DNA of 64,000 nt, taken from positions 372,001 to 436,000 of the forward strand of contig WBVU01000005.1 in assembly GCA_009192285.1 (NCBI GenBank). Reading direction: 5' to 3'. Each line of letters begins with the position of its first letter. The stretch's first letter is position 1. The notes below the pieces were generated by a model that saw only the letters and a list, made by a program, of their open reading frames with translations, did no database searches and had not been told where the DNA came from. Positions 3,282 to 60,427 of this stretch are shown piece by piece. The DNA is from Morchella semilibera (lineage: Eukaryota > Ascomycota > Pezizomycetes > Pezizales > Morchellaceae). Position numbers and translations under genes: made by a program.

Positions 3282-5013
3282 ATGCCACCCAAGCGTCCAC
3301 CTCCCTCCATAGATATAGGTCTCGTGCCTCCCGCCTCCGCCGCTGGCCCTCCCCCCGCCGCTGGCCCTCCCCCCGCCAAACGCCGCCAACTCAAAATCCC
3401 GACTCCCAGCATCCCCACCCCTCCATCCCTCTTTTTCACCATCCCCTACCCACCTCTTCTCCCCGCGTCCCCCGATGACCCCCCTTCCAGCAATGAGCAG
3501 TTTACAGATTTCCTACACGCCCAGGCCGCCACCCTGCCCCCCAGCACCCAGATCCTCTACACTGCCGCGCTAGCCAACCTCGAACCAGACAACACTCCAG
3601 AACTCACAGGAGGAATGCGCGCGTCGCTAAAAGCCGCCGTCACTGCTTTTACGGTGCATCAACCTTCACCAGCCGCAGATCAGGATCCGGGCGAGGAGCA
3701 CGAGCAATTGGGATTTCTGAGAAGGCTGGCCGCAGGGGATGTAAGGAACAAGGAGTTGGTGGACTGGGCGGACACAGTTACAGCTGCCCTCCTGTCATTT
3801 AGCACTACCCGCGGTGCTGCAGCTCCCCCGTCTGCCTCCTCCGCCTCCTCCACAACACCTACGCGTCCACGTGCGACACCTACACCTGAGATGCACAGCA
3901 GCGCCCACCACAACACCACTGGCTGCTCCTCGGCCATCCGTAATAAAATCCTCGAGCGTGACAGTCACGCGTGCGTGGTCACAGGCGTTCGCGATGCTAT
4001 TATACTCGAGGTTGCGCATATCATCCCCCCCAGCGTACGCAGGGAGACTGCCGCTTCCCGGGGGCTGCTGGGGATCTTTATGGGGGCCGAGCGACTTGAG
4101 GCATTGAGGACGGCTACGCTACAGCGCGCCGGATGCGCGAGTGTAGGGGAGGTTGCCAACCGCATGGTGCTGAATGTGTCGGTACACAGGTACTTTGATC
4201 GGGGGAGTGTGGAGATTTTGCCGGTTGTGGGGTCGGGTGATTGGGGTGTGGGGCGGGGGTATGATCCGAGTATTGTGAGCAGTGTAGGTCGCCCTCACTC
4301 CGATTATTTCTAGCACGCGACACCCATCCCCCCCCCTTCCAGGCGGACATAGCTAACCACTCCCCCAGTATGACATAAGCATCCACTACCCCGGCTCCGC
4401 TGCTCTGCCTCTAGCCAGGTACATTTATTCTACCCCAGCCCCTGGTACTCAAACCGGGCAACAACTGTTGTCCAGCGCGCTGCTGACTCCCGGCACAACA
4501 ATCACGCTCACGACCTCCGATCCTGCGACAATGCCACTGCCGCATCCGTTGCTACTGCAGCTGCATGCGGTCTGCGGGCGCATCAGGCGCCTCAGGGCTG
4601 CGGCTGGGTGGCCGGTGCTGCCACCGGGGGATGGGTCGGATGGAGGCATGCAATGGGGGGAGGAAGAGGAGATGCCGTGGGAGGAGGAAGAGGGTGGCAT
4701 TGGGGGGGGAGGTGGGGAGGGGGAGATCGCGGCGACGAGGTTCACAATGGAGCTGCCGGAAGAAGGTATCCGGGATTGGGTTCGGGGGTGCTCCCTGGGG
4801 CCGTTGGATGGGGATTCTGGTGTTGAGCCCGGGGCGGACGCCGGGGGGGATAACGGGCGGAGGTTTGGGGATGGGATGGAGCAGCTGGAGGAGGGACCGG
4901 ATGACGGAGAGAGGCCAAGGAAGGTGGCGGATGTGATGGAGGAGATGGGGATGAGGGAGGAGGAGCGGCGGAGGTTAGTGAGCGGGTGGGGAGGGAGGGG
5001 GCTGGGAATGTAA
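3282..5013 (+). CDS. HNH endonuclease-domain protein, two exons
   Basis: Exons 3282-4274 and 4369-5013 (545 aa). The intron has a GTGAGC donor, an AGCTAAC branch point and a CAG acceptor, and joins in phase 0. Residues 1-70 are Pro-rich and disordered. Residues 70-175 form a helical region. An HNH_2-type domain follows, with Cys231 (CVVTG), His246 (EVAHIIP), Asn298 and His302 (LNVSVHRYFD). Exon 2 reads YDISIHYPGS, continuing the fold, and then a Glu/Gly-rich acidic tail. HNH domains cut DNA with one metal ion; many fungal members are uncharacterised and I infer only a nuclease-like role. Reading through the intron would stop at 4313 and lose the C-terminal third. It converges on the gene at 5597-7819. 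Confidence 0.8.
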
Positions 5014-5596
5014 TGGTACCTTTTTTCTTCTTTTTTTTTCACTTTCCCTTTTTTTTTCTGTATGGATTGGAGGGCTTTAGGTAATGCTTGGGGCCTCTGG
5101 GGTACGAGGTTTCATCTTCTCTCCCCCCCCCCCTTCTTTTCAAACTGTTTGGGGGCAGACCCGTTTTATTCACCCATCTCCTCTTTTCCCTTTTAGCTGT
5201 CTCTTTACACCCGAGAGCAGCATCTATTCCTGTGATACCAGCATACTGGGCTTTTTCTATAATTCTATGGGCTGGCCTTATAATAACTAAACCGCTATAG
5301 CCGCAATAGTATATATCACCCCCCGTAAACTCTGCACATGAACAAGGAAAGACGGATAATCAGCAACCCCCCCCCCCCCACATATCCCCAAACACTAATT
5401 GCCGCGGTTCTTTCTCCCACTGTGTGACTGCCAACACCCACAAACTCGCCAATTCTAATGCCCTGCGGTGTCATTTGGGGACAACGACGGAACTGTTTGA
5501 ATAACGAACGGGTGGTTTTTGGCAGCGGAAACAGCCGCCCAGGGACCTAAAGCTAAAGCCAAAGAATACAAATCACTCCTCCACTAAACCCACCCA
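5014..5596. other. Intergenic space between convergent genes
   Basis: Homopolymer-rich 3' flanks (runs of T, C and A near 5025-5380) lie between the two convergent stop codons. No ORF of substance or repeat copy was seen. It presumably holds both polyadenylation regions. Confidence 0.4.
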
Positions 5597-7819
5597 TTAT
5601 AAGACATCACGGTCCTTACGCTCTACCTCCCATACCCTTGCCCTCTCAATCACCCTTTCCACAATCCCCTTCACCCTCACCGCACCCCTCATCACCTCCA
5701 CCACGGCTCTCCACTGATTCCACTGCATCGGCACAGCCCTCTCTTTTCCCTTTACCAGCACCGCTACCCCCCCTTCTCCCAGCATATGCATTGTCCACAC
5801 CTTCATCCTCCACCCTACACATAGCACTCCTACTACCTGCAAGCCCTCCCTTGGCATGCCCTCCATTAAACTATTCAGCATCCCTCTTAAACCCCTGAAT
5901 AGCTTTATCTCATCATTTAGCTCCCTGGGCCTCCGCGCGCCACGGCTAACTTCAATAGCACCCAGGTCGTAAACGCGCCCGTCCGCCAGCAGGCAACGCA
6001 ACACCCCGTCGTAGCGGTAGTCCAGACCCTTCACCGCGCTCTTGACGTCAGCCCGCGACACTGACAGCCCGGGGATGGTATGTAGGCAGCGATCCAGTAG
6101 CGGAGTCCACAGGGATGAGAACCAACTACTGCGGAGCTCCGTAAGCCACTTACAGGATGTGTAGCTGGTAAGGAGCCCAATTCTGTGTTGTTGTCAGTTC
6201 GTTTACTCTACTTTTATTCTTCTCCTCCTTTCCCACTTCACTTTGGGGAAGGAAACCCGGGGGGGGGGAGGGTATACATCGAGGACGCAGCGCTATTCGC
6301 ATACAGAGCAGTGGCGTGGCGGCGCTCATCAAATGCCTCCCCCGGCGGGCGTGACGGCGACTCGATTATGTCGTAGAGCTCGGCTATAGTCCTCGGATTC
6401 TGTCACATCTTAGCACGACATTCCCACGCGACAGGCAGAGAGAAGAAGTTTTCTTACATCTGGGAACCGTCCAACCGCGTACTCAAACGCCGCATCCCTC
6501 TCCGGCAGCGTGGGCCCCCATCCTGCGACCTCCTCCATTTCATGAGACGTGAGCCATCCGCATATGGCCGGATCTGAGAGGTCGATGATCCATTGAAGGA
6601 TCGGGTTATTTCGCAACCAGGGGCTGGAAGCAGGGACGGCGCGCACCTTGTAGTATATGATGTCTTCAAGAATGCGGCCGCTGGCGAAGGTGTGTTTGTG
6701 GGATGGCGTGAGAGAGAGGTACACATCGATGAAGGTGGAGTCGTCGGGGAATGGGGAGGGGGAGGATTCGTCGGAGTCGGTGGGGACATTGGTGGGGGTG
6801 CGGATGAGACTGCCCATGGAGGATGGGTTCGATTCTTCGTGTGTTTGGGCGCTGTCCTGGAAATGGTTAGGATAAATAAAAGCGGATAGTTTATAATAAC
6901 TCACTATAGCTTCCTCCCCACCCTCTTGCTCAGTCCCCGCCTCCATCTCACCAGTCCAGTCACTTCCATTCTCGTGGTCCTGCAACTCTGTAGCCTCCCC
7001 CACATTTAGCATTGGTAGCTTCTGCGGCCTCACATCCTCACTCTCCGTCCTCCTCTTCGTCCCTTCCCCTTCAACCTTCAGCCCCCGACTCCCACCCATC
7101 AAAGCTAGCTTACCAGAGGCCTCTTCTGTTTTCACCCTGCGCGCCGGGGTGATATCCCCATGCACGATCGTCTGCGGCGGCACTGACGCTGACGACGCTG
7201 AACTTGATGATCCTGCAACCCGGCCACCTGTCTGCTAGTAGGCACAAATATTAACCCACGAGCACGGTACCCCAGCAAAACGGAACACCAGCGCGGAGTA
7301 TAGGATAGGAAAAGCGTATTTGGGAATTGTACGATAGATAGACACATGCGTCCCCCCATTTTGTGCAAATCAGGCGTTGGACATTGCCAAGGACCCACCC
7401 AACCCCCGGGCCCAACACCAGGCACAGCCAGGGAGGACAGTCGATGTGGGTAACGGCTTGGCCGTTAAACTCAACAGCGAGGGGAAAGTAGAAGGGGGGA
7501 TTGGGGAGTGGAGAAGGGGGGAAGGAGGGGTGCCTTACATCTCAGATCCCGCCTTATCCAACAGCATACCCGCCTTTACCTTACGAGCGCTTGATTCCAG
7601 CGGCGAGCCTTCAATGATAGATAGGTTCTTCCTCCAACGCAAGTCGATTGAGTCGGACAGGAAAGTGCCGAAGCTGGTGACATGGTATGCTACAAAGGAG
7701 TTGTATGACCATTCTTCAGACGGACGCACGAAGTAGGTTGTGCAGTAGGCTTTTACTTGCCCCTTGGTGAAGTTCGTCTCTTGTGGGGATGGGGGCGGGG
7801 GTTGTCGTGATCTCGGCAT
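5597..7819 (-). CDS. Multi-exon fungal protein with restriction-endonuclease-like C-terminal motif
   Basis: Proposed exons, read leftward: from the ATG at 7819 to about 7539-7570; about 7220 or 7230 to 6905; 6856-6460; 6399-6278; about 6183 (or slightly lower) to 5597. The intron 6904-6857 (48 nt, GTGAGT...CTAACC...CAG) and the intron 6459-6400 (GTAAGA...CAG) are clear. The first junction and the one between exons 4 and 5 do not give a unique in-phase solution. Exon 2 is a Ser/Glu-rich linker and exon 3 is folded (DVYLSLTPSHKHTFASGRIL). The last exon holds YRYDGVLR, then YDLGAIEVSRGAR and a Lys/Leu-rich helix. This order (D...IEV) recalls PD-(D/E)XK-like domains of fungal proteins, by pattern only. 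It could be a slightly decayed gene. It converges on the HNH gene. Confidence 0.55.
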
Positions 7820-9397
7820 GGTGTTTTGATAGTTATTGGTGGGCTGGTAGATCCGTAGAATCGTGAAGGAGAGGAGGGGGAAGGAGAGGAGGGGGGGAGG
7901 GGCTGGCTTAGGGAGGGGGATCTTGGCAATCTACTGTGCACTCAATTTGTGGAAGAAAGTGGACAGGGCTGCTCCTAACCTGTGTGTGTGTGCGTGTGTG
8001 TCTCAGCTTTACTTTTTGTGCGCGGGGGGTTCGCTGCTTGTCGATGCTTGACAGGATACGATATAATCTTCAGGCTTGGATTTGGCGGCTTATTAATAGT
8101 CTTGTAAGATTGTTGTATTGCTGTTCTCTTTTGCTACCTACCGAACAGCGAAGGCAGCTGATAGAGTATATATACACGTAGGTTGTGTCATCTGGTTTCG
8201 GGCAGCTTTGCAACTTTCCAAACAAAGAAGATATCGGATGGAGGTGTGGGCGCAACAAGGAAGAACACCCACATCCCTTGAATTTGCTGTTGTCGTCTTT
8301 GTTTGGTTTTGGTAGTCCATCGCCAACCTTTACTATACATACGCGCTATCAGAGTTAAGCAGGAGCCCACACCATTTCCACAAACACAAAGAATTAGAAA
8401 CTATCTGGAGGTACATATGCAGAGAAACATAACTCGCCAGGTCGGTTGGCGGATGGCTACATGTACTGGGTAGTTCCTCTGCTCATTGTTGTGGTAGACG
8501 AATCTGTATCGTACCGGCATAGATCCCCGGTCTCGCTTCCGCTGCATGCTGCATACGCAGCGATCCGCAGCCCACGGGATCACCCCTGCAGGTCCCGATC
8601 GCAACGGCCCCGATCTAGCCACCTATGCTGCCAAGCCGATCACGTGTCACTCGCTAAGCGCCAAGCGCCACACACTGGGCTTACTTAATTAGCCACCCGC
8701 CAAGACTCGCTTCCCAACTATTTCTCATGAAGCGCCCCGCGCCGGGGCCTGGGGTCCGGGGCTGCAGTTTGGGAGCTGTATGTAGATCCATTGAGCTTAC
8801 CCGACTTGGACATATAGGCCCAAATAGGCACTTACTGGTGTGACATTCATTTGGCTCCCCACCAAAAATCCAACTTTGAGAAATTGAAGAACTCCACCAC
8901 AACGAAAGATAAAATTTATCTGACTCTGTTAGGTTGTAGAGAAGAAGCAGTTCTATCATCCAAGAGAGGGAAAAATAATTTAGGCTGTGGTTGGGAAAGT
9001 CATTAGCGGTTGAAGTTGACACTCGAAAGTAGTCCGGTTACAGGTGCCTCTAACCATATACAGATCCGGTGAGAAGGGGGGAAGACGCCCTCTTCTCACC
9101 AGGGTTATCTTTTCCTCTACGATTTATTGCAATGCTTTATATGATTCTCTGGTTCTTGTTTCCGGACTGTAGCCCTACTTTTCTCCTTTTCTACTTTGCG
9201 CTAGTAATTTTTTAATCCGCCTAACTCATCTCTTTCCCCGCCCGGCACCAGCGACCGGAACCCCCCGCGCCCAGTCTGGGTGCACTAATGGGGTCAACAG
9301 AGGGGACTACCATGGGCACGGAGGCAATCCGGGCTTAATTGTGGGTAAGGGAATATGTATTAAATAATCATTAGCCCTATAGAAGGTGGTGATTAAT
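7820..9397. other. Intergenic, no supported gene
   Basis: Short ORFs on both strands have neither introns nor recognisable domains. A G/A-rich run (7860-7920) and a TG-rich stretch (7978-8000) lie near the 5' end of the leftward gene, possibly in its promoter. Confidence 0.4.
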
Positions 9398-10167: not shown

Positions 10168-10169
10168 TA

Positions 10170-10406: not shown

Positions 10407-10408
10407 TA

Positions 10409-10989: not shown

Positions 10990-12417
10990 ATGTCGTTTGG
11001 TATTGGGATTGGCGACATTTGCCTGGTGATTCGGGGTGCATGGAGAGGCTGGGATGCCATCGCCTCATACTCCCAGGACAGTGGCTCGGTGCGAGAGGAG
11101 TTGGCCCTCTGGAGGCCAGCGTTGGAGAAGCTTTCAGAAAGACTTGCAAGTCAGGCTCTCTCGCCTGAGGCTGCTGCGATGGCCCAATATCAAATGGCGC
11201 AATGCTATCAGCTCCTGGATAAGATAGACAAACACCTCAACGGGGGCTCCCGAAAGGGCACAAGACGTGCAAAATGGGCACTGTGTGATAGAGGCAGAGT
11301 TATGGAATATATGGAGGCCGCCAACCGAAGAATGAGAAGCTTGGAGACAATGATTATAATGTGGGTCTTCTTTGTATAAAGGGATAGGCTTGGTGATTGA
11401 CAGTTAGCTGTATAGGGAAATGGCCACAGAGAGACGGGTGATTCTTACTCATACAGACAACATACCTTTAACAATGCCAGTAAACACCCAGGAAAATGCT
11501 ATTCAACTAGTGGACGCGATGGATGAGGAATGGAAGATACCAATGCAGATTTATAGGAGCTGGGAAGTATGTTTAGACAAGTGGTCAATCGATATTAGAA
11601 GCTAACGTTTTCCTCGTGATCAGGCTCTCCACACACTACTAATGCTAAAGTTCGAAGGCGCAAAAGGGGCTACTTGGGTCCGAGCTAGGAAGTATCACAT
11701 CACGGATGAGATATCAAGGTTAAAGCTTAGTAGGGCGAACTGGGAAGAAAGCTTAAAACCTGGCATGAAAATCTCAATGGCCGTGGTACTTCAGAGAGAG
11801 AATGAGTACAGCCGGCTACACAAATGCCCCAGGTGTAATCACCCGCATCCAGGGACTACAAGTGACCAACTTGAGCGTGTTAGATGGTATGATTGACTAA
11901 GCTATGGATCCATGAGCACTAAGCTCACGATTGCAAATAAAATATATATAGCGCTCAATGTCGAACATTTTTCGAGGTCTCCTCCAGGCACCGCATCACC
12001 GATTTGGATGATAACGACCATGATGTTACGACACCTCCAAATCACCCCAACGGACTGTATGATCAAATCGGACCACAAAAAGCCCCCGTTATTGACACAG
12101 AGGATATAAATTTCTTTCGTCGTTTGCATTTATCTTTGTACGAGTCAGAGAAATTCGCGTCTATGAACGAATTATGGTATGTTTCTTGTGATAGTCAATT
12201 CGTAGGCATTGTTGATAACCGGGCCCGGCATAGGGATACGATATGTGTGCAGCCAGGTTTCAGTAGCGGTGAGCTAGACATGGATCTGCTCACGAGCGAG
12301 CTTCGGAGCGTGGCCAAGTGTTCAGAGACAGGAGTTGTCATACGACGGCGTGATATGCTAAGGATACTTGCCGGTTGGCTACCAACAGTAAACCGCAGCG
12401 ACAATAACCATATTTAG
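10990..12417 (+). CDS. Fungal STAND-type N-terminal / ubiquitin-like (ULD) domain protein
   Basis: Four exons fit perfectly: 10990-11360, 11416-11566, 11624-11886 and 11988-12417 (404 aa). All three introns start GT and end AG, and the second is textbook (GTATGT...GCTAAC...CAG). The N-terminus MSFGIGIGDICLVIRGAWRG followed by an amphipathic helical domain (residues 1-120) is the pattern of the N-terminal domain on fungal STAND/NLR-like proteins. Residues about 130-225 match the fungal ubiquitin-like domain (ULD_2): NIPLTMPV, IYRSWEALHTLL, RYHITDEI-like, GMKISMAVVLQ, then a CPRCNHPHPG knuckle. The C-terminal 160 residues are not recognised. Such proteins are thought to act as adaptors in signalling; the role here is inferred. 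No transmembrane segment seen. Confidence 0.85.
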
Positions 12418-14527: not shown

Positions 14528-14929
14528 GGTGGTGTAAAGGGATATCTCAGAAGTTACTAAGATATGGCTAATGCTAAGCGATAGTTCTGTAGCTTTTAAA
14601 CTTGTAATATTGTAGACCGGATTCCGTTCGCTTGAGAGGATGATGCTTCCCCTAACACGACGGGAATCCTACTAACTATTTATACATAAAGATCCCCCTT
14701 AAACCCACTAACTCCTCCAATAGCAAATCTCCCGCAATGCCTCCGCTACTGCTCCGACTTCCTACGAGGTGGGGTAACCAAGGGTCCACCCAAGAGGTGT
14801 GGTAGTGGTTGCCAAGCTATAACCGAACCCCGCTTCTGGGTGTACGTCACTCTTCCATCGCGCCGTCGTACCAGGACAATACCATTGTACTACTAGTACC
14901 GCACTTCCAAGCAATCCTGTAACAGGTGG
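14528..14929 (-). mobile_element. Solo LTR with 5-bp target duplication
   Basis: A single LTR at 14533-14924 (392 bp, TG...CA) is flanked on both sides by GGTGG (14528-14532 and 14925-14929). It is the same family and, on the plus strand, the same sense as the LTR at 2470-2862. There is no internal element sequence beside it, so a complete element was lost by LTR-LTR recombination. The TATAAATA motif is conserved. Confidence 0.93.
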
Positions 14930-17100: not shown

Positions 17101-17114
17101 AGGGCGCCGCGGGC

Positions 17115-17170: not shown

Positions 17171-17175
17171 CGGGG

Positions 17176-19829: not shown

Positions 19830-22800
19830 TCAGGCTCCTGTATGAATAAAGCTTGCCCATAGTAATGGCTGCCTCCGGTTCTCATCTCGAAGCTTTTTCA
19901 CCGCTCTATGGAAAGCCAGGTTGACTTTCATATGTCCGTCATCGCCGCCTGTATCTTGCTCACTCCCTCCATCCGCGCTGTCAAATAAGAATTTATAAAA
20001 ATTGCAAGAGACCTGCAGAGGTGCTCGGTCAATAGTTTCCCAAAGTGTTGCAAGGACATGTGAGAATCCGGAAAGTAGGAACGCGGTCGAGATATGGGTT
20101 GATTCATCGGCAAGCGAATGTACATCATTTCTGGCGGTGGAGCAAGCCGGGATAAAGGCAATCTCTGCACTTTTGATGCTCATACTCGATACAGCCTCTA
20201 CAGTGAGCCTGTCGACAGTTTGCAGAGAACATTCTAATGTACGGTCGTTGCAGAGTAATAAATGACTATTCAGCGGGTTCTTAGGGTTGGATATTCCGTG
20301 GCAGGTGAAATGTACCGCATCGCAATGGGCGAGCTGTTCAAGGACCTCGGTGGCACAAGGTCGTTCCAAGATCGTAGTGGTCGCTCTGTTTTTCACAAAC
20401 TGACTAATCGTGTTAACCTCCTCATCTGCAGCGGTGAGAGGAGCATGTTTAGGTGTTTCTGGCATAGTAACGAGTAGAATCCTGGGCCTGGAGTGCCTGC
20501 TTGGCAAGCGGACCTTCTTGTCTCTTGCATATGAGAGGGCCTTAATTGTTGGAGTATATGAGGAGATAACCCGACACAGAGTGTTTTTCGTCGACCCTGG
20601 TGAATGGTCCCCGGCCGCATGAAAAGGCAACATACTCAAAGAGCCGACACCAACCCACCAGACTCTGGGTAGATTGATAGGGTCATCGCCCTCTATAGGG
20701 AGAAGACCCAGTTCTTCAAAAATCGGTCCTACAGCCACATCCCATAGCCAAAGTAGTAGTTCTTCCAGCCCCTTGTTCCTCGCTGGAAACGTACTGGCCT
20801 TCCCTTTCGTCAACTTTCGGGTTAATTTTCTTATATGATTGTAGATCTCCTCATGCTGGAATTGCGGGAGCGGTAGACTTTTAGTGGCGGAGTGTGTAAC
20901 GAGTATTGCATCGCTACGCAGGCTGCTAGAGTTGACAAAAATAATTGAACCCTCTCCTGCCATCTTCATTAGGTCCTCGACAAGAGGTGGCTCGAGAAAT
21001 CCCGCAAATCCTGGAAGCTCCCGAATAGTGCTGACCAACTCCTCAAACATCTCAATATCATTCTGTCTTTGTCGACCCGGGTTCCAACTAATTTTGTTTG
21101 CATCATCTATAATAACCTCTAGCGCGTTACTAGTAGGTCCTTGATAATCCCCGGGTGAGTCTATATTATTCCGAAGGATACTAAACCGTCTGTGGATATC
21201 CGGATATCGCTTCTCAAGGTCGGGGAAGCTGCTTCTATAGTCGATCGAGAGGCCTGTTGTGATCCCGCGTCCCAACTCAAGTAACCTAAGACAATGTGAT
21301 GGTTCTGATCCTACATGTAAGGCTATAGCGGTAGCAACCGTAGAGAGAGAACTAAAGCCAATGAGATTATATTGCTGGTCATCTCGTGTAATACGCCGCG
21401 GACTGATCTGTGGAAGTAACTTCACAGCATTTTCGTAAAGAGCACATGCCTCTTTTAGATCACCTAACGATTGATAGATTTCGGCAGCAGAACGGGCTGC
21501 TTCGACTCGTAGGCGTGGTGCCAATGTCCTACACCTCCAAGCCTTGAGGTTTATGTCAAGAGCGTAATCATACTCTTCAGCTGTAGAGCAATTTCCGAGA
21601 ATCAAGAGATCACCAAGCCCTTTCAAAACAGTGCTGCGAAGGTAGTGATCTGTGGGTAGCGTTTTCAATGCTTCCACGTCCAGGCTTCTAGCCTTCTCGA
21701 GATCTTGCTTGTCGGCTGTCTTCAGATATCTATCCTTCAGAGAGCTGGAAAGGCCGTACATCGTGAAAGCAATACGGTGGTGATCTTTTGGGGACGCTTC
21801 ATATGCTTCTTCTGCCCGCTGAACAGACTCATTGAGATCATCCAAAGACCCTCCTCGATAATACCTAATCGAGAGCTGCCGGCTCAAGCTGCCAAGAATC
21901 TCCATTCGACTTAGTGAATCCTTTGGTACAGCCTGAACCGCCTTCCGACACGACTCTATCGCCTTCTCTATGTCCTGTGAAGCTCCAAGCCGTTCGTATC
22001 TATCGCTCAGGTAGTAGGCAAGGTTGCTTAGGAAGATCGCTTGATATGGGTTGTCATCTGCTGCTTCCTTGACCGCCATTTCGCCTAATTCGATGCATTT
22101 CTGAAGGTCGTCAAATAATCCTAAATGCCGATATCTATCATGGATGTATATACTCAAATTCCCCAATATACCTCCTAGGTTACAGTGATCCCTTGGTGTT
22201 GCTTTCAACGCTAGTAGCATACGTTCAATAGAATCATCGAGATCCTTAGGATTCCCAAGTCGTTCAAATCTATCTCTCAGATAACAACCTAGGTCACTAA
22301 GCCTACCAGCCCAATTGAAATTCTCCTCCGGTGTTAACTCAATCGATTCCGTAAGTAATTTGATCGCTGACTCAAGATCTTCGTAGGCCCCAAGCCTATG
22401 GTATCTCAACCATAGACGGTTTGCAAGTCCACTTATCCAGTCTACTCGAGACGGATCATCAAGTTGTGTCTCTTCAATCGCTCGCTGACTGCACTCAATT
22501 GTTCTTTCGAGGTCCTTCAAATCCCCCAAACGTTCGTACCTATCGGCAAGGCGGTAGCCTAAATTATGCCACCGTGTTGCCCGAATGGGATGAGACTGAG
22601 GTGTTGTATCAAGCGCTTGCTCACTCCATTTGATAGCAGATTCAAGATCGCTGAATGTTCCTAGGCGTTGGTATTTGTATGCAAGGTAGTTGCCCAGATT
22701 ATTGAATCGAGTGGCGATGTTAGGGTCATTTTCTGGTGTTATCTCAACTGCCTGTTTCAGACATTGAATGGCTCGCTCGAGGTCGTCAATGTTCCCGCAT

Positions 22801-23717
22801 CGTTTGTATTTATCACCGAGATGACCTCCCAGAATTGTTAACATAGTGGCCCGATACTCATAGGCGGATGGTGCTGTGGAGAGTGCATCTTCGCTTATTG
22901 TGATAGCATCTTCTAAATCACCTAAAGCTCCTAAGCGCTTGTACCGCTCATTGAGCGACACCGTGAGATTGCTACGCATGATTGGTAGATGAATATAATC
23001 GGTCGCGGTCGATTCTACTGCCTCCTTCCTTCGTAGGATAGCTTCTGTGAGGTCCTCCATGGATCCTAATCGTTGATATCTGTGTGTAAGATAATTTCCC
23101 AGGTTATTGAGCATGACGGAACGCCCAGGGTAGTCATTTGGGGCTACCGCTAACGCCTCCTCTAAATGTGCGACCGCCATCCTAAGGTCCTCCAACCTTC
23201 CGAAGCGAAGATACCGAGATTCCAAATAGACACTCAGCCTACTCAATGATGCTGGGCGGTTGGGGTCTCCGATCGCAGTGTTTGCTACTGCCGTTTCAGC
23301 TTGAGAGATTGGAGTGTCAAACTCAGATCGCTCAACGTGGTCGTCTTCGGTTTGTGGTTTGCTTGGTTCCGCGTCTGGAGTGCCTTTATGTTGGTGGGTA
23401 GAAGTCTGTTCTTGCTTGTTTGAATCGGCTAATGCTGACGTTGTACTGGGGGCATCTGTTATGTCCGACCTTGCCTTTTTCATGTATGCCAAAAGGGACC
23501 CCAGCCCGGAGTGTGTAGGTGAGTCCATTTGTGTAGGTGAGTCCATAGCTCCTTCAGCTAACGCGATGGCGTTGTCTATAGTCTCAAGACTGCCAGTGGC
23601 CAAGAATTGACTATATATAGTACCAATTTTGGCCAGAGTGTCCGACCTGTTTCCAGTGGGGGCCTCTCCCGGGTCTTCAGCGAGGGCCCCCTCGCTATCG
23701 CTACAGTGTTGTTCCAT
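19830..23717 (-). CDS. TPR-CHAT caspase-like protease
   Basis: A single open frame of 1295 residues. About twelve TPR-like repeats of roughly 46 residues occupy residues 160-720, each carrying a version of Y.RLG...DLE.AI; a more irregular helical region follows (720-990). The C-terminal 300 residues are a CHAT domain: the motif VHFTCHG gives catalytic His1140, and FIPACSTA gives Cys1192, so the dyad is complete. The end (LAFHRAVKKLRD...WASFIHTG) is the usual CHAT terminus. CHAT enzymes belong to the caspase/separase clan and are activated through their repeat sensors; fungal ones are linked to cell-death and non-self responses. The N-terminal 150 residues are acidic and low in order. No introns, frameshift or signal peptide. 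The substrate is unknown. Confidence 0.95.
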   Translation of the reverse strand: MEQHCSDSEGALAEDPGEAPTGNRSDTLAKIGTIYSQFLATGSLETIDNAIALAEGAMDSPTQMDSPTHSGLGSLLAYMKKARSDITDAPSTTSALADSNKQEQTSTHQHKGTPDAEPSKPQTEDDHVERSEFDTPISQAETAVANTAIGDPNRPASLSRLSVYLESRYLRFGRLEDLRMAVAHLEEALAVAPNDYPGRSVMLNNLGNYLTHRYQRLGSMEDLTEAILRRKEAVESTATDYIHLPIMRSNLTVSLNERYKRLGALGDLEDAITISEDALSTAPSAYEYRATMLTILGGHLGDKYKRCGNIDDLERAIQCLKQAVEITPENDPNIATRFNNLGNYLAYKYQRLGTFSDLESAIKWSEQALDTTPQSHPIRATRWHNLGYRLADRYERLGDLKDLERTIECSQRAIEETQLDDPSRVDWISGLANRLWLRYHRLGAYEDLESAIKLLTESIELTPEENFNWAGRLSDLGCYLRDRFERLGNPKDLDDSIERMLLALKATPRDHCNLGGILGNLSIYIHDRYRHLGLFDDLQKCIELGEMAVKEAADDNPYQAIFLSNLAYYLSDRYERLGASQDIEKAIESCRKAVQAVPKDSLSRMEILGSLSRQLSIRYYRGGSLDDLNESVQRAEEAYEASPKDHHRIAFTMYGLSSSLKDRYLKTADKQDLEKARSLDVEALKTLPTDHYLRSTVLKGLGDLLILGNCSTAEEYDYALDINLKAWRCRTLAPRLRVEAARSAAEIYQSLGDLKEACALYENAVKLLPQISPRRITRDDQQYNLIGFSSLSTVATAIALHVGSEPSHCLRLLELGRGITTGLSIDYRSSFPDLEKRYPDIHRRFSILRNNIDSPGDYQGPTSNALEVIIDDANKISWNPGRQRQNDIEMFEELVSTIRELPGFAGFLEPPLVEDLMKMAGEGSIIFVNSSSLRSDAILVTHSATKSLPLPQFQHEEIYNHIRKLTRKLTKGKASTFPARNKGLEELLLWLWDVAVGPIFEELGLLPIEGDDPINLPRVWWVGVGSLSMLPFHAAGDHSPGSTKNTLCRVISSYTPTIKALSYARDKKVRLPSRHSRPRILLVTMPETPKHAPLTAADEEVNTISQFVKNRATTTILERPCATEVLEQLAHCDAVHFTCHGISNPKNPLNSHLLLCNDRTLECSLQTVDRLTVEAVSSMSIKSAEIAFIPACSTARNDVHSLADESTHISTAFLLSGFSHVLATLWETIDRAPLQVSCNFYKFLFDSADGGSEQDTGGDDGHMKVNLAFHRAVKKLRDENRRQPLLWASFIHTGA

Positions 23718-25067
23718 CGATCTATCGTGCTACTAGCCTTTAGTTAGCCATCCCTAATAGCACAGGTATTGCGGCCAGACCTTTCAGGTTCCACTTCGAT
23801 AGCTCCACCCAACTGAGACCCACTGACCCCTCGGGCGTATTTCTGGGTTGATCTTCCGAATGTAGGATTCTGCGCGCTCAGTGTATTCCTTTGTGTAAGT
23901 AACAGCTGTAAAGTCTTTGAGGACTATAAAACAATAGATTTGCCTGCAAACGTACGGTCGGTTGGCCGAATAGCCTATGTCAATCCAGTACCAGATGAAG
24001 CAAGAGAACTGTAGGTGTTGTGGTAACCTTATCGTTGTGAGGAGAAGAACCTTTTTCGTTAATAGAATATATATCTTCTCATGTCCAGAGATTCGGCATT
24101 TTATAGGTTTGGCAAGGCTGGCAATACAGTCAGTCTTCTAGCCATCAACAAACAGAAAATTCTCTGTTCCCAAGACTTCCAAGACATGCAAGTAGGATAT
24201 GATATAATATTTTTGACTGCAAGACCTCAAGATACGCATGGAGATATATTCGATCCTTACGCCAACGATTCCCCTCTCAGGGTACTTGTGAGCCCATATG
24301 CGGGTCATGAGGCTAACGCATGCAACATGATCTTGATTAATAATTTTCTTTTTCGTTACCCTTCGCACCCGTGGCTAAATGTTTCTAACAGAGATTGTCC
24401 GTTGCAACAAAAAATAATCGAGACAAAAAAGATCAGCACCGTGCTCGGACAAACGCTGTTTACAGCTGTGCTCTCATGGTTGCGCTTAGGAACCGTACTG
24501 GAAGCCTCTGTGGGCGGCGTTCAAAGTATCATACCTACTATCAGATCCTGATCTTTTTTATGTCGGTCCTTTTTTTCTGTTTGGCGTAAACTCTCTAATT
24601 TAGTATTGACGTATGACTACTCTCCCTGTTTCTGGAATTATTTTATGGGCTTAACCGTTTGGGCGAGGTATATATTTAGTGCCGATGGTTGAGCCTACAT
24701 CCTTCGCCTTATGCCGTGTCAGCAGGAGCCGGACGAAACAGGGTGGGCGTTCTTGTATCCCGCGCGGCGCATTCACATCAACATCGGCCGTTTGTATGAG
24801 CATCTCTACCAGGGGGTCAAAGTGCTAGGATGCGGCAATTGCCAGCGCATCTTCGAGTATTGTTCCCTTGGGTTCTACTAAGAGCCATCCCATAGCATCC
24901 TGATTCCAAACATGCCGGCCCCTAGAAGTTGAGATGGCTATGAAGCGATTTTGGACTAGAAAACTATCTCAGGGATGCAGAGTACAAACCGACCTACCTC
25001 TCTCGCTCGATTTCTATTTCTCTATCCCCCACTATCAAGCTTCGATCTACAGCCACTCACTACTTGG
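23718..25067. other. Intergenic upstream of the CHAT gene
   Basis: Contains the CHAT gene promoter region (no clear TATA box) and a 156-codon rightward ORF (24081-24551) without a recognisable domain, which I leave uncalled. A possible ankyrin remnant is listed separately. Confidence 0.4.
24705..24872 (-). pseudogene. Possible decayed ankyrin-repeat fragment
   Basis: Read leftward, the segment gives ILEDALAIAA, a stop, then LVEMLIQTADVDVNAPRG, which resembles the ankyrin consensus (VEMLL..GADVNA..G). It has a stop and no flanking repeats. Ankyrin genes are common in such genomes, so a fragment is plausible; the match is short. Confidence 0.3.
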
Positions 25068-25069
25068 TA

Positions 25070-25249
25070 TAGCGCGAGAAGGCATAGGGGGTGGGTGTGT
25101 AAACTTCAGAGGAACTTTTTTTTGTATGGGAATTAGACCGTTGAGCTAGGCACTAGTATGATTTTGGGAGTAGATCTCCCAATTTCTGTAGACTGATTGG
25201 CTACAAGCGCTGAAGTTTACACACCTACCCTCCATAGCTTCTCGAGCCA
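25070..25249. mobile_element. TIR element (MITE), 180 bp, TA-flanked
   Basis: The arms contain GGTGTGTAAACTTCAG (left, sense, within 25070-25113) and its complement near 25210-25225, preceded by GAGAAGGCATAGG and GAGAAGCTATGG respectively. TA is present at 25068-25069 and 25250-25251. No coding capacity. Confidence 0.75.
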
Positions 25250-25864
25250 TACACTGAAGAAGCACAAGGATATATGGGATGTAGCTCTACGACACGCACG
25301 CGACAAAGGTTCTCATTAGTGGAAAGATAGAGAGGGAAATGGGGATGCTGTAGGGTGTAACTGGCGCTCCCATCCCGACCTGGAAATATTAACTACTGTC
25401 AGTCATGATTGATTGATGGCATAGGTTATAAACCCATACTTATCCGATTATTCTAGCTAATTACGGAATTATATCTCCGGCCTTCAAAACCGAATTCCTT
25501 ACTCACATTGACCTTGTTTAAAATGAATCCAGTGATACATCGGTTTGAGCGTTAATAATAACACGATAGTTGGTGCGGTTTGACACTTTTTACTTGATGG
25601 TTGAACTGGGACAGGCTCCCACTCAAACCGATTCACAATGTAACAACATCAAGGCTAGAATTAACCAAATCCCGCATCAGATGATAACTGTAGATCACTC
25701 GAAATCAATATCTCCTCACAGGCACACTAAAACGACTATTTTAGGTTCTGCAGACCAAGTGTCCAGGAGACCAAATCGTCCGGAGATCTCCGCGTGAGTC
25801 AGTGAGACTAAACGATTGGATTCGTCGCCTCAAGTCTGATGGGAGGAAGAACGATTATTTGTTG

Positions 25865-25940
25865 GTCGTCTGGACCAATGGGTAACTGGTATTCCGGCCC
25901 CAGTTTATTTCTTTACTCCTGAGGCTCTGCGGTACTGGGC
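25865..25940 (-). repeat. Decayed end of a CCGCAGA-type TIR element
   Basis: Read leftward from TACCGCAGAGCCTCAGGAGT, the sequence follows the left end of the element at 38334-38507 for about 70 bases, including GGAATACCAGTTACCCATTGG. The other terminus was not found, so this copy is truncated or strongly diverged. Confidence 0.6.
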
Positions 25941-26110
25941 CTTCTGGGAAAATGGCGAGCCTTGCCCGATGGCGATTTGACTAACAAAAGTCATACATAG
26001 AAGTGCACTGAGCCCCTTTCCCTAGCTGGATATCAACTCTCTCTAGGACCAGGTCAGTTGTAAATCCGCCATCCTCCACCTACCAACCTCCGCCACGGTC
26101 CAAGAAAGTA

Positions 26111-26190
26111 CTACGGGGGTAGGGATAAGTCTCCAGAAGGCCATGGTTGCAACAGGCCATAGTTCTGGAGACTTACCCCTACACCCGTAG
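26111..26190. mobile_element. Fold-back element, 80 bp, TA-flanked
   Basis: The arms CTACGGGGGTAGGGATAAGT and CTACGGGTGTAGGGGTAAGT (second on the opposite strand) match except at two positions, and the pairing goes on through CTCCAGAA and, slightly offset, a GGCCATGG/CTATGGCC pair. The loop is TTGCAACA-like. TA at 26109-26110 and 26191-26192. Nearly the whole element is one hairpin. Confidence 0.8.
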
Positions 26191-26380
26191 TATAGTATTC
26201 CATGGTTTTACTACATCTGTAGACTTATATGACCTAACTCACTAATTATGGGTGACTAACTATGGTTATGGTTTAAGATGTCGCTCTTAATTAAGTCTAA
26301 TCAAATCAGATACTCGAGTTTTGTACTTGATTGTGGTTAGCTTATTCTGTACACTAATATTTACGTTCCATTAAAGGGGA

Positions 26381-26587
26381 TGTACCCAGGGTGTCGGAAA
26401 GTGGTGCACCTTCAGAGTCGCACGGGAACTAATTTTCGCAAAAGGCTAATTCTATGCAAATGTGAGTATGCTTCGTGATTATGTATGGTATGGTAGAGAG
26501 GTTTACGAATATTGTGTTATGTTGTGATAAAGCATCTGGTCGTTGCCTAGTCAAAATGTGCATTGCTTTCCAACACAGCCTGGGTAC
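26381..26587. mobile_element. TIR element related to that at 2874
   Basis: The termini TGTACCCAGGGTGTCGGAAA and TGTACCCAGGCTGTGTTGGA (the latter read on the opposite strand) are imperfect inverted repeats about 30 long. The AAAGTGGTGCA just inside is also found, as AAAGTGATGCA, in the element at 2874-3115. No ORF and no clear target duplication. Confidence 0.6.
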
Positions 26588-27451
26588 ATATTGATTACTT
26601 ATAATGAAGCCTTACGATTGAGTGCATTTAGATATCTTAACCTCTGCCCGGCGCCTATCTGTGATATAGGAGGACCACCTTAATCGGCAACCTGACCTGC
26701 TATATTCCGGAATGCTATTTATTTACTGTAGAATTTCACACTCCGTAATATTCTATGATCCAAAATTACTAAACTTCCGCCAGGAAGTGATTAAAGCATA
26801 CCAAAAGGAGGACAGACCGTTGTTGGTCAATGAATTAGAGTATTATTTATCGAAATGATATATATCTTATCAATCACTTTATAAAAGTAGTAAATAATGC
26901 GTGCGCGTCCCAAGGCTCAATATAACCTTTGTTATAGGTTGTGCTTTTCAGTGTGCTCTTGGGTTCCCGCAATATTTCCTAATCACAATTGATCGAAGCG
27001 GTTCTGATCGATCGTGGCCCTACCTTTTTAGATTCTTTGACTGTAGCGATCTTGCGCATGAGAGAAATGTTTGCCTTGTGACAACCCTAACCCACACATA
27101 ATGGTACAGCGGGTTGTGATATGTTCCGCCTTGCAGGTGCTGTAGTACAACGATGAAGTTGCTGAAATAGAGATCGAGTGGACCTAAGCAAATTTCTTTT
27201 CTGATCCCGTAAATCATATTCTCAAGGAGAAGTGTACGTAATTGAGCATTGGAGTGGAGGACCATTTGAGGCAAGTGCGGCTGAATAAACTATAAATCGA
27301 ATGTAGCAAAATATGATTTTATTTATAAAGGTGCTCGTTAGATGTGTAAAGTTGATCAGAGCGCGTTGATACCGATATCCTTTTTGCTCGCCTCCCCACC
27401 TAAGTCCTCCATATTTTGCGTTATAGTTCATTCGAATAGATCAAAGTCAAG
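26588..27451. other. Intergenic upstream of the 277-residue protein gene
   Basis: AT-rich, no supported gene except regulatory sequence close to 27330. Confidence 0.4.
27320..27331 (+). promoter_or_regulatory. TATA-like element
   Basis: ATTTATAAAGG lies about 120 bases before the ATG at 27452, a plausible position for a fungal core promoter with a short leader. Confidence 0.4.
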
Positions 27452-28285
27452 ATGTCGCTCGAAGCCCCTCCACTTCCAAACACCCACCCACTACAATCAC
27501 TTCGCCTTGGCTGCTTCACCCTCAACGTCGAGGATATCCATGAAAACACTCACGATCCCTTCGAGGGCCGGCCAACTGCAGCTGAGATTAATGTCAATGC
27601 CCACGAAAACTTCCGCGAAACTCAGATAGTATCTAAGCACACCGGAATCCGTGCTTTCCTAACAGACCTACTCTCGTTATCTAACGAGAGTTGGGGCAAA
27701 GGGTCCACGAAACTAGTCGCCCCCGTGCTAACCACATATAAACTCCGGAATAACCTTGTGTGGTTCGAGGAGGCATCCAGCAAGCCTGAAACACGTGCTT
27801 GGATGCTGAAGGCATTGAACAATCGTTACGATGTCTACCTTCTTGTCGGATTCTTTGTTCTTACAGATGCTAAGCTGTCCATAGCCAGGACCTCCTCCAC
27901 GCTCGGGGCAGCCGGGGGTGAGGCATCAGCGCTGCCGACAGGAATTGCAGCAATTGGAAACGTTATGACCTTGACAGGAGGTGTGAGAGGTACTAGGGAC
28001 TTTAGCCATGGTAGAATTAGTGTCTTGGATATACCAGGGGATCAGATATTTGGCATGTGGTACCGTAAAGTCAGATTTAAGTGGTCCTTTAGCAGGGAGG
28101 TCGGCGAACCATCATTGAGTGAGAAGACCCGATGGAAACCGTTCTGGGAGGCAAGGGGCTCCGGCGAAGAGGAGGAGGGGGAGGAGCAGGAGGAGGAGGA
28201 GGAACTCGAAGAGGACAGTGATTATGAAGAAGAGGGGGATGTCCTTGAAGTGGATCTCGAAGGAGAGGACTGCTGGGATCCGTAG
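27452..28285 (+). CDS. Uncharacterised fungal protein with YLLVGF motif and acidic tail
   Basis: A single exon of 277 residues. After a Pro-rich start comes LGCFTLNVEDIHE (19-31), a charged helical middle (60-125), then the hydrophobic strand VYLLVGFFVLTDAKLSIART (128-147), a Gly/Ala/Ser-rich stretch (151-180) and a second strand-rich part ending QIFGMWYRKVRFKW (198-211). Residues 238-277 are nearly all Glu/Asp. The order (long helix, YLVxG-type strand, Gly-rich segment, closing strand) is that of a widespread fungal family without assigned function. Its length and the layout are comparable with fungal gasdermins, but I cannot claim membership from sequence reading. No signal peptide. The next upstream gene is the CHAT protease, transcribed away from it, 3.7 kb off. 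Confidence 0.8.
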   Translation: MSLEAPPLPNTHPLQSLRLGCFTLNVEDIHENTHDPFEGRPTAAEINVNAHENFRETQIVSKHTGIRAFLTDLLSLSNESWGKGSTKLVAPVLTTYKLRNNLVWFEEASSKPETRAWMLKALNNRYDVYLLVGFFVLTDAKLSIARTSSTLGAAGGEASALPTGIAAIGNVMTLTGGVRGTRDFSHGRISVLDIPGDQIFGMWYRKVRFKWSFSREVGEPSLSEKTRWKPFWEARGSGEEEEGEEQEEEEELEEDSDYEEEGDVLEVDLEGEDCWDP

Positions 28286-34346: not shown

Positions 34347-34348
34347 TA

Positions 34349-34447: not shown

Positions 34448-34449
34448 TA

Positions 34450-36671: not shown

Positions 36672-36673
36672 TA

Positions 36674-38520: not shown

Positions 38521-38564
38521 CAGACAACCATGCCCTATTCTACAGCTTTTCAAAAGCGACGGTA

Positions 38565-38794: not shown

Positions 38795-38796
38795 TA

Positions 38797-39979
38797 ACAG
38801 TAGAGCCCGTCACCCCTCCCCGGTTGCCCATGGGGTCGATCGATCTAGCGGACAGCTGTCACACAGCTATAGACACAGTTTCAGACCCCTTTCCTACGCC
38901 ATACCACCGCTAGACCCGGTTCATCTAACACAACCAAGTGACACCTGGTGCTAATCAGGGTTGGGCTGCATCGCCAAAGAGACGAGGTAAGGAAGTATTG
39001 TGGGTGTCAAAAATAACCTCGCAACCAAATTTTAAACGTACCACCCTTGAGCGCGTATTAAAGCCTTGGGCTATATAACTATCGAGGATCATAGAATTGA
39101 AATTCCTTCCCTTATTCCTCTTATGGTTGTGGTGTAAGGCGATATTTAAGTTACATTCTGATATTTTGGTTACAACGGAGATTTCCGGTTATTTTTGGCA
39201 ACTAGCAATATAACCCCTAATTGGAGAGCGTGGGCTAAATTTACATAGAGTCTATCTATCGCAGCGGGGCCTCATTTACCCCGCCTGGTTTCCTCGCTCT
39301 TCCTGCTCCTCGAGAACGCGCACGATGCACATGTGGTCCACTTGCAAAGGCCCGGCGCTTGATGAGAGCTCCCCTGTGTAACAGCGACACAGCTCTCCAC
39401 TAGGAGGTGTAGAGCTTAGACGTGGTATATGACTTGGAGGGATCTGAGTGGTTTTCCGAGGGCTAGGAGCATATAAGTACACATTTTCGGCGGTAGTAGC
39501 CACCTAGGTCAAATGACCACTGAGGTGCGCATGAAATCCGAGGATTGATAGGGGTGCAGTGCCTGCATGTAGGCTAAAACTGTTAATGAACCGAATGTAG
39601 ATGATTTTCTGACTTCGCATTTCCTCAATCCCATTACGTCATTGAAATCGGGATCATGCTGTTATATGCCGTACCCTAAAATCTCCGCCTTCGTAACACA
39701 GACACAACTATGCAGCAATAAAGGATTTGCTGGCTATTGCACTTCAATTTCGATGGTATACTAATCATGTAGGGTACCACGCTTCTTCCATTATCGGGTT
39801 ACGATGCGAGGTTGATTAATCTGATTGTGGGAGATTAATATAGCAAGTCCTGTCCAGCGTTTTCGTCGGAAGAAATCAGAAAATACTCGTCCGACCCTGT
39901 TTTACCAATTCTTCTAACTCCCGGAGCTGCATATAAGTCGATACCCTTCATGGTTTGTTCAATCCCCGGAAATTGATTA
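38797..39979. other. Intergenic upstream of the patatin gene
   Basis: No gene is supported. A TATA-like GCATATAAGT at about 39929-39938 could serve the gene starting near 39980. Confidence 0.4.
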
Positions 39980-42900
39980 ATGTTCGGACCTGATACATGG
40001 CAGACGGAATTCTATGCACTGCCAAAGCCCTGCCTCGGCTCTGGAATCGATATTTCTCTGGACCTCCGGGTCTTTACAACGAACGATTGCAATTCTCATG
40101 TTGCAATTAGCGGTTGTGAAGAAAGCTCGTTGCATGGGTCCAACTGGCAGAAACACCTCCCTCGAGCCGAGCACACCCCTGAACATCAGGCGTGGCGCAG
40201 ACAAGGTCAGGCCTGCATGAGCCGGGTTTTTCGCTGCGAGATGAATCCAGATATACCCAGAGAACCCCATCCGGGAGCTAAGGAGGCTAGATGGTGCTTT
40301 ATTCGCCATAGAAATAATGGGCCACACGGGAGAACGGAGAACGGTTGGATACTCAACGTGACTAACCGGTTCGAAACACTTATGCAGGGAAATAGAGAGC
40401 GAGGGACCTCAGAGCAATTGCCAAGTCTCGTGTCGTTTATGGGGGGTATGGGTGCGGGAAAATCAACAATGATAAGGGCACTGATTATGCTATGCTCAAC
40501 CCACGAGGAGGAAGAGGAGAAGGCCTTTGATATCCCAGTCTCAGGGCCTGCTGAGCATAAGCGGTGTCCCAGAAACCCCATCCACTCTGGAATACATCTA
40601 TATAGGGACCCAGCGACATCTGAGTCGACGGTTCCCATCATCTTTGCCGAATGTGAAGGATTTAACGCCGGCGCCGCACCTCCGACCTTAGCGTGTGATG
40701 ATACCCGTCGTGATGAGGATTTGTTGGATACAATTCTCATAACTCCATCCTTATACAGTTATACTGGATCCACACCTGAGAACCTGTATTCACGCTTTCT
40801 TTGTTCGTTCAGCGATGTTGTCTGCCTGGTGCCGGCCAAGCTTGAAGACTTAGCGAAAGACATTGCGAGTTTGCTACTATCGATGGCCCGTGGTCACGGT
40901 GCCCCTTTCAATCGTGAGAAAACGAGCACCCTCATCATTGTTATTAATGCACTCCCATACGAGCATGATCCCGCCAGTATGGGTGAAGTTGAACTGCGCC
41001 AGACAATCTTCGCGGGGGTCCCCAAGGTCTGGGAGTGCTCGGAGGAATTAAAGCGTACTCGACAGGAGTCCTATACAGCACTCGGTGGATCGGAGAAACA
41101 GATTACCAATACAGAGGACTTCATACTACATTACTTCCGGAGTGTTAGCGTCTGTTACATACCACCGAAACAGCACGGTCACCTCAACCTATTGCACGCC
41201 CCATTTGACGCACTAAGGTGCAGGATTGTGGGCGATGTTAAGCAAGCGGTAGAAGATAGAGCGATAGCTTGGAAACAGTTCAGGACAAGAGACCTGACAC
41301 GAATTTTTAGCCAGGCATTCAAACATTTCGCCACCAGTTCTGCACCCTTGAATCTCTACCAATCAAGTCGACAGGATATGCCACAGGAGGAGATTATGAC
41401 TGAACATATAACGAACTTGCTACGACATTGTACGAGAGATGGAGGGACGGAAATGACTGAAAGCTTCCCAAAGATCGTTGCCTCAAGTATTGTGAGTAAC
41501 TGTCTTCACGGAACAGGTCTTGGTAACTACCCCGTTACATTCCTTGAATTAAGTTGGAATCGGCTTGCTAATATAGCTGCCAAGTTTTGGATCCTCATCT
41601 ACTCTGGGAACATGGATATGAGCAAAAGTGCTTCACAGCGATCCAAGACTATTATGAAGACGCAGTCTGCCACTATAGGCAGGGTGATGACCGCTGCACC
41701 ATAAGAATTTCCGTTCACGGCGACCAGTATCTTAAGGGCCGAGACGGAAAGAATATCAGTGATGGTACTCATAAGTTTGTTCACCCATGTATAGAGGCTG
41801 ATACTGGTGACCTGGAACGCCACTACACTAGTGTGACAGAGAAGATAAGAGAGCAATTTTATAAGCTGTATCTTGAACTCTGCAGAGATGGAAATGCAAC
41901 TCAATGGCCTTCTGCGGAGGATATTACCACAAATCGAAAGGAAGTCTTGGGTAGCTTAGGGGAGCTCTGGGTCGGCGTCAGCAGCTATAAGACATGCTTC
42001 TCATGCCTCTCCTCCGTGCCGGATCATGTTCTTCCTTGCGGTCATGCTCAGTGTGAAAATTGTGTGTTGGACTTTGGAGAACATTCCGAGACGAAGGAAG
42101 CAGAAATAGTCTTGCGGGGATGTGTATTCTGCCCTCGCCTGCGGGAGGAGCACCTAATTCAAACGAAAGTCATAGGTGCTGGGGTGAGGGTGCTTACACT
42201 CGATGGTGGGGGAGTACGAGGCATATTGGAACTGGAGATCCTGAGCAAGATTCGAGAAAGAATTGGGTTAGATCTGGCACTTTATGATCTCTTTGACCTT
42301 GTGGTTGGCACAAGTACTGGTATGTAATCTCATCCGTAAACAGCCTCACGCTGGGTCTTGCTAAATATAATCTTGTGAATAGGGGGCATCATCGCCCTTG
42401 GATTATTTTGTCAAGGAGAGGAGTTAGGGTCCATGATTCAAAAGTTTAAAGATATATCAAAACGCACCTTTAAGTATACTAGGGGCCCGACAACATCCCC
42501 AGCGCAACTAATATCTCGGAGCCTGTACACAAAATCTGCTTTTATCATGACAAGGGTTTGGAATAGTATTTATTATACTGGTCCTCTTAGGGCAGGGCTG
42601 CAGGAGGTTCTTGGGAAAGATTTCAGTCCTTTCGGACATGTAGTCCGTACCAAAGTACAGCGGCCAACTAGGGTAGCGGTTATAACGGTGAAGGATGAGG
42701 GGACTCAAGCCACTGCAATTGCCAACTATAACCGTCCAGCTCTAGGTAAAGTCCCTGAGCCTGACTGAACTTGGTGATGGCACTAAACTGGACAGATCAA
42801 GAGGATTTTGAGCGTGCGGAGAGCGAGGAAGGGGAAATAAAAACATGGGAGGCGTAAGATAATCCTCAGCTTGAGGCGATTACTAGGCTGACCCCTTAGA

Positions 42901-43857
42901 AATAGGGGCCTATGCACTGCGGCTGCTCCTTTCTATTTCTCACCTTTCAAAAAGGTATCCCAAGGGACGACAACCAGATATTTTGACGGCGGTCTAAAGC
43001 ACAACAACCCGATCTTCTGGGCATCCGATGAGTGCAGAAAGATATGGTACAACTCTCGCCCCAAGGATCCAGATATCCTCGTATCTGTGGGTACAGGATT
43101 GTTCCCCGATCATCAGCGGAAACTACCTGATGGATTCCAAAGCCACCAGGTAACGGCAATAGCAAACAGCTTTTTCGAGAATCTCAGTGGTGAGAAGATC
43201 TGGGAAAAGTTTCAAAGGGATGAAAGGTACAACGCTGAGATTCATCACCGAATTAATGTTCGATTCGAAGGTAGATGCTGCGCACTCGACGAGTACAAAG
43301 AAATGGAGAGATTGGTACAGGAGTTCAACGCAAATTTTGAGGGTATTTGTCCATCAACAGAGCAGAGCCAGGCATACTCCCCTAGGATACTTCGAGACTC
43401 GGTGGACCGGGTATCGTACCTTCTCATCGCGAAGCTGTTTTTCTTTCAGCCAACGAAAATTACAGTAGATCGCCGCAATCACCGAGACATCCACACAGCA
43501 CAAGGCAAGATACTTTGTCGTTTAAGACAAGGCACCAACGCGTTGAAAGTTCTAGTCAGTCGGATTGAGATGTTCAAATTATGTGAAAACCCTACGCACG
43601 GTGGATCGATGTCTTCTGCATCAATTACTGGACGCTGCCTTGCAAACGTCGCATATGCAACTCGACAAGGAACGAGGTTTGAAATACCCTTTTCAATCAT
43701 GACAACAGATACCAAGAGCAAATACAGCATAATTCTTAGTTTAAAGCGGTATTCAAAATCTTCTCTTCGTCTGGAAATGCCAATAAGTGGTTTTCCATGC
43801 GAATTTGATGGTACGTCTATTTTCAGTTTCGGCATAGAGTGGTCCGGCGGAAGCTGA
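39980..43857 (+). pseudogene. P-loop GTPase - RING - patatin phospholipase gene with one frame break
   Basis: Exons: 39980-42319 (broken), 42383-42745, 42796-42853 and 42906-43857. The three introns (63, 50 and 52 nt) join in phase. A P-loop GMGAGKST (residues 156-163), then IIFAECEGF and TLIIVINAL, suggest a GTPase-like domain. At about 41995-42130 a RING-like module follows (CFSCL...CGHAQCENC...CVFC). The patatin domain has DGGGVRG (about 42203), the Ser motif GTSTGG (split by intron 1) and the Asp motif YFDGGLKHNNP (about 42979), so Ser and Asp of the lipase dyad are present. Between residue 536 and the next part the frame moves by one at TTTT (41585-41588); one extra T would restore it. 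Either a sequencing slip or a young pseudogene. The patatin part acts on membrane lipids; the start codon is uncertain. Confidence 0.85.
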
Positions 43858-60425: not shown

Positions 60426-60427
60426 TC

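Follow-up and report, generated by a model that had tools for sequence, protein, structure and literature searches.

Fungal gasdermins are activated by proteolysis, as described in passages of two papers (PMC12881547, PMC10197012). In Podospora, activation of a gasdermin by the TPR-CHAT protease of the same cluster has been demonstrated in one case, and the gasdermin HET-Q1 loses ~5 kDa (same passages of PMC12881547 and PMC10197012); most fungal gasdermins, according to the latter, adjoin S8 proteases. Here we describe a gasdermin-like gene and a TPR-CHAT protease gene lying next to each other in the morel Morchella semilibera (assembly GCA_009192285.1), in a stretch of 64,000 nucleotides that we call the window (contig WBVU01000005.1, our C21, positions 372001-436000). 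With a probability of roughly 0.8, the window carries one gasdermin-CHAT two-gene cell-death module, for which activation by the protease is proposed. This type of module is already known; it is newly recognized at the window, and in a large, clumped set.

The closest described system is the TPR-CHAT/gasdermin cluster of P. anserina (Clave et al. 2022, as cited in passages of PMC12881547 and PMC10197012), in which the same kind of TPR-bearing CHAT protein stands beside a gasdermin; the likeness is one of description rather than of compared sequences, and activation in the morel would follow by analogy. The morel differs in having twelve pairs, strongly acidic tails and many pairs near contig ends. 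In HET-Q1/HET-Q2 of P. anserina, the gasdermin gives up a C-terminal fragment of ~5 kDa to a protease encoded at its own locus; HET-Q2, however, belongs to the subtilisin-like serine proteases and is an idiomorph, whereas the morel protease is of the CHAT type and comes from an adjacent gene. RCD-1 of Neurospora crassa (8jyz, 8jyy) is ~10% identical to the morel gasdermin in a structural alignment; it works via two incompatible alleles, no protease partner being described in the passages drawn on, whereas the morel gasdermin has a CHAT partner. Bacterial gasdermins that stand beside proteases (8sl0, 7n51, 7n52, 7n50) are, unlike the morel protein, bacterial and anti-phage. Where it can be tested, the anatomy of the morel pair agrees with published fungal gasdermin activation.

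The gasdermin gene and its CHAT partner

The pair and its parts are (window positions):

19830..23717, minus strand: TPR-CHAT protease gene, single open frame, 1295 amino acids (aa) from the first ATG
19836..20762 (C21:391836-392762), minus strand: CHAT (caspase-like) domain, aligned with 13 other CHAT domains
23718..27451, no strand: 3.7 kb region between the two 5' ends, presumably a shared promoter region
27452..28285, plus strand: gasdermin gene, 277 aa, single open frame
28160..28282, plus strand: acidic tail at the gasdermin C-terminus, 41 aa, 4.78 kDa, 25 Asp/Glu, zero Lys/Arg

A preliminary description of the window had listed a TPR-CHAT protease and a 277-residue family protein among five immunity-type genes, and both were recovered. 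The open reading frame (ORF) of 277 aa at 27452-28285 on the plus strand has 18 matching places genome-wide, including the window copy and its duplicate on contig C22. The protein has no Pfam match, and no PADLOC match at E 0.01. Its predicted structure has the gasdermin N-terminal fold, and it looks like a gasdermin, a pore-forming type of cell-death protein; the best sequence match to a known fungal gasdermin is a weak one to RCD-1-1 (E 0.031). The tail, at 4.78 kDa, is similar in size to the ~5 kDa inhibitory segment expected of fungal gasdermins, and is proposed to be an inhibitory fragment taken off by the protease. In two other frames of the family, L069 (C17) and L077 (C16:1024 kb), the acidic tail is followed, by eye, by a hydrophobic stretch, possibly a membrane anchor.

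The protease gene is enclosed by a minus-strand ORF of 1299 aa (19830-23729). TPR repeats matching several Pfam TPR families, including a TPR-S stretch (1.1e-7), precede a C-terminal CHAT domain well above the Pfam cut-off (E 1.5e-29; 103.8 bits against 24). In the alignment, the window domain keeps both the His motif VHFTCHG and the Cys motif IPACSTA, whose His and Cys we take to be the catalytic residues. Between the two 5' ends lies one plus-strand ORF (24066-24548) that has no Pfam match and is unexplained.

What is seen directly is a predicted gasdermin fold with its tail, a protease whose His and Cys are intact, and a head-to-head pairing that recurs across the genome; the steps of cleavage, pore formation and death of the cell are extrapolated from the Podospora precedent. 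The proposed sequence is: i) the TPR-CHAT protein would be a sensor-protease that stays inactive until the TPR part encounters a trigger, candidates being non-self after hyphal fusion, a virus or a bacterium; ii) the activated CHAT domain would, by analogy, cleave the adjoining gasdermin ahead of the short acidic tail; and iii) the freed basic gasdermin body (~26 kDa) may then enter membranes, make pores and kill the compartment.

Pairing and placement across the genome

The assembly has 56,756,124 bases in 23 contigs. Loci were found by exon-wise six-frame searches, so that counts are lower bounds, and repeated loci of duplicate scaffolds were counted once. CHAT searches gave 20 places, which merged into 15 distinct loci. 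Twelve of these have a gasdermin-family locus within 10 kb, against a mean of 0.1 and a maximum of 2 in 5000 random trials; conversely, 12 of the 17 gasdermin-family loci, window copy included, have a CHAT locus equally close. The order is head to head in 11 of the 12 pairs, and tail to tail at C5:20 kb. The CHAT domains are 34-48% identical between pairs (68% for one pair). Clustering beyond chance, for which a genome-wide count of all the window's families had been proposed as a test, thus holds for CHAT and the 277-aa family, far beyond chance, and fails for the five families together.

Several points weigh against a two-gene module. Three of the 15 CHAT loci lack a partner, as do five of the 17 in the gasdermin family; among these five, a C16 fragment at 998 kb lies 4 kb from an S8 protease, in agreement with the S8 neighbours that PMC10197012 describes for most fungal gasdermins. 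The partners show weak co-evolution: a Mantel test over 10 pairs gives r 0.44 and p 0.012, and p rises to 0.14-0.17 when either member of the one recently duplicated pair (C1, C16:968) is dropped; strong co-evolution of the partners was accordingly discarded. Four of 12 CHAT genes look damaged (C21:1021, with Arg replacing the catalytic His; C6, without the Cys block; C16:957 and C5:20, with frame changes), as do four of 12 gasdermin genes (C21:1030, C16:950 and C14, with frame changes; C6, with an early stop in the tail). Both partners look damaged in three pairs (p 0.067), and shared decay is suggestive only; just seven of the 12 pairs are free of lesions over the stretches examined, which in the case of several CHAT genes extend no further than the domain and its neighbourhood. 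Errors of assembly may account for part of the frame breaks: a further C9/C10 locus pair, at an AP-1 gene, shows 20 gaps in 3.2 kb and looks like such an error, which makes single frame breaks weak evidence. For the window gasdermin, the predicted local distance difference test (pLDDT) score is below 50 over residues 236-276, the tail, and no cleavage motif was found. The content between paired genes was read for the window pair, one of 12.

CHAT and gasdermin-family loci are also concentrated near contig ends. Within 130 kb of an end, a distance picked after the positions had been seen and with pairs that are not independent, lie 9 of 15 CHAT and 10 of 17 gasdermin loci, against a genome share of 0.10 (p 4e-6 for CHAT). 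The excess of CHAT fails at 50 kb only (p 0.12, 0.0006, 0.0001 and 0.00007 at 50, 100, 200 and 300 kb). The corresponding counts are 3/19 for HNH, 2/12 for patatin, 0/5 for ULD, 3/19 for NACHT and 3/10 for S8. Of the 40 contig ends read, 23 carry at least two copies of the 10-base telomere repeat given in PMC7014384; no array was read at the C16 end, which holds two of the nine end-near CHAT loci. Near that end, C16:950483-1025296 is a block with two CHAT, four gasdermin-family and one S8 locus in 75 kb, some of them damaged or partial. The window lies 372 kb from its contig start, which has no telomere repeat, and pairs far from ends occur at C21:392 kb, C21:1021 kb and on C5 (463 kb from the end). 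The modules clump: 20 modules or lone members form eight pairs within 100 kb, where 0.7 are expected at random and 1.8 when the end distance is kept (p 0.001).

The best surviving alternative is that the CHAT-gasdermin pair works as a unit in development (programmed lysis, or processes of spores or fruit bodies) rather than in immunity or allorecognition. Neither the link to immunity nor the trigger is directly supported here, which leaves this reading some room. The divergent copies, the placement near ends (9/15 CHAT loci) and the damage fit diversifying recognition better, if indirectly, and we consider a developmental role unlikely.

Three scaffold pairs seem redundant. C22 duplicates no less than the first 1.15 Mb of C21, C10 duplicates C9, and C13 seems to duplicate C12 (first 100 bases equal, one NACHT place in common). 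Among 14 locus pairs compared (12 C21/C22, partly overlapping, and two C9/C10), 11 are identical and three differ slightly, mostly by indels. C22 was therefore set aside as a second strain for comparison; being near-identical to C21, it looks like a second assembly copy. The sequence taken as counted twice amounts to ~4.8 Mb, and the true genome size is perhaps nearer 52 than 56.8 Mb.

Neighbouring genes of the window

Three further genes lie outside the module:

3282..5013, plus strand: HNH_2 nuclease-like gene, domain at 3972-4208
10990..12417, plus strand: STAND-N-like, ULD_2 and AP-1/Pap1-type cysteine-rich gene, 5 predicted exons
40217..43857, plus strand: P-loop, RING-like and patatin phospholipase gene, several predicted exons

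The HNH gene, as described earlier, is confirmed (HNH_2 E 1.2e-6 in the plus-strand ORF 3171-4310); its intron at 4284-4368 is predicted only, and its protein has no PADLOC match at E 0.01. In the gene described as STAND-N/ULD, Pfam matches ULD_2 (E 1.6e-18) and PAP1 (E 9.9e-9); the "STAND-N" part has no Pfam match, and this N-terminal domain recurs at three further loci. Identification as a fungal NLR (STAND) was rejected, as the 416-aa model has no central NACHT or NB-ARC domain in Pfam at E up to 1. The 3' part of the gene (11952-12417, plus strand) duplicates the C-terminal, cysteine-rich domain found in AP-1/Pap1, an oxidative-stress factor. This domain is 56% identical over 50 residues to a locus at C9:1810 kb that also carries a bZIP-like stretch by eye, and both have a predicted intron inside the same Trp codon, again by eye. 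Other ULD-type loci match in the N-terminal and ULD parts only. The AP-1/Pap1-type end looks like captured exons, and perhaps acts as a redox or export sensor, or as a decoy.

The gene announced as GTPase-RING-patatin stands as a patatin gene: the domain (42193-43014, plus strand) matches at E 2.8e-18 in the spliced gene, which shows, by eye, the motifs GGGVRG, GTSTG and DGG. RING stays below the Pfam cut-off (best E 0.09), and "GTPase" goes back to a P-loop seen by eye; both are tentative motif readings. Models of phospholipase effectors in PADLOC match the patatin domain at E 3.9e-32. These are presumably effectors of the cyclic-oligonucleotide-based anti-phage signalling system (CBASS).

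The surroundings, said to be rich in transposable elements, are so in part: with the ORFs given to Pfam, Ty3/Gypsy domains occur at both edges (gag at 1-1818, minus strand; gag to pol at 59310-64000, plus strand). A direct repeat of ~390 bases (2469-2862 and 14532-14924, 90-95% identical, 12 kb apart) flanks the HNH and ULD genes and possibly represents solo long terminal repeats or another repeat. Long coding-like regions at 5316-7819 (minus strand) and 47615-49371 (plus strand) have no Pfam match over cut-off, and the window has no Rfam match at gathering scores.

The preliminary description had suggested that the five genes form one immunity-like island. That they act jointly is improbable, more so than a developmental role of the pair. 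In its favour are the patatin match to phospholipase effectors and two enrichments. Outside the window, 6 of 62 loci of the HNH, patatin, ULD, NACHT and S8 families (4 of the 19 NACHT loci being below the Pfam cut-off) lie within 64 kb of CHAT, against 1.9 expected (p 0.015). The first 1.2 Mb of the window contig, without the window, likewise holds 6 of 62 such loci (1.4 expected, p 0.002) and 3 of 14 CHAT loci (0.3 expected, p 0.003), an enrichment for which we offer no explanation. With the window included, 9 of 65 loci are near CHAT (2.0 expected, p 0.0004), a count that is circular, the families having been chosen for being in the window. Against joint action, the excess outside the window comes from S8 (3/10), NACHT (2/19) and one HNH; the window's own families give 1/18 for HNH_2, 0/11 for patatin and 0/4 for ULD. 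Cross-family pairs among the five non-CHAT families within 64 kb number four without the window (3.6 expected, p 0.47) and seven with it (3.9 expected, p 0.10). All five window families together are not repeated elsewhere in the genome, and the five-family island was rejected as a general feature; MFS was unusable as a control family, as it was scored for 9 of 213 candidates only. No genome-wide tie between the module and the HNH, ULD or patatin genes was found, and these three are treated as neighbours; good support for a function of the immunity type exists for two of the five genes, CHAT and gasdermin, which make up the recurrent module.

That the adjacency of CHAT and gasdermin merely reflects gene-dense or duplicated subtelomeres is hardly credible: loci of both kinds are enriched near contig ends, but pairs far from ends keep the same head-to-head order, and 12 of 15 are paired against 0.1 expected.

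Possible meaning for morel incompatibility and defence

Only two HET-domain loci were found in this genome. Morchella importuna, as described in parts of PMC8940278, also has two, which its incompatibility did not follow; vegetative incompatibility there is perhaps not under known het genes, and more genes must exist. The same source found two linked incompatibility genes, of which one encodes a CorA-like domain and the other no known domain; in the parts drawn on, neither is described as gasdermin or CHAT, which speaks against the following, bolder proposal. That morels, nearly devoid of HET-domain genes, run non-self or antiviral death mainly through diversified gasdermin-CHAT modules, each equipped with a TPR sensor of its own, in near-end defence islands, and that these modules underlie incompatibility, is a tentative and rather doubtful proposal; the example of such an island would be the C16 end block, in which some loci are damaged. 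The link of the modules to incompatibility is one that we infer, and the CHAT-gasdermin pairs are good candidates for the killing of incompatible or infected morel cells.

Among the titles listed in a literature search on gasdermin and Morchella, none concerns morel genes, and no report of morel gasdermins was found, supplementary tables of the gasdermin surveys being outside its scope. The analysis gives the name gasdermin to a family that Pfam misses here, and provides a concrete set of cell-death genes for morel genetics. Whether fungi have defence islands is left open in the passages drawn on from PMC10197012. For one genome there is now a partial answer: gasdermin/CHAT modules clump, and HNH, patatin and ULD genes stay apart.
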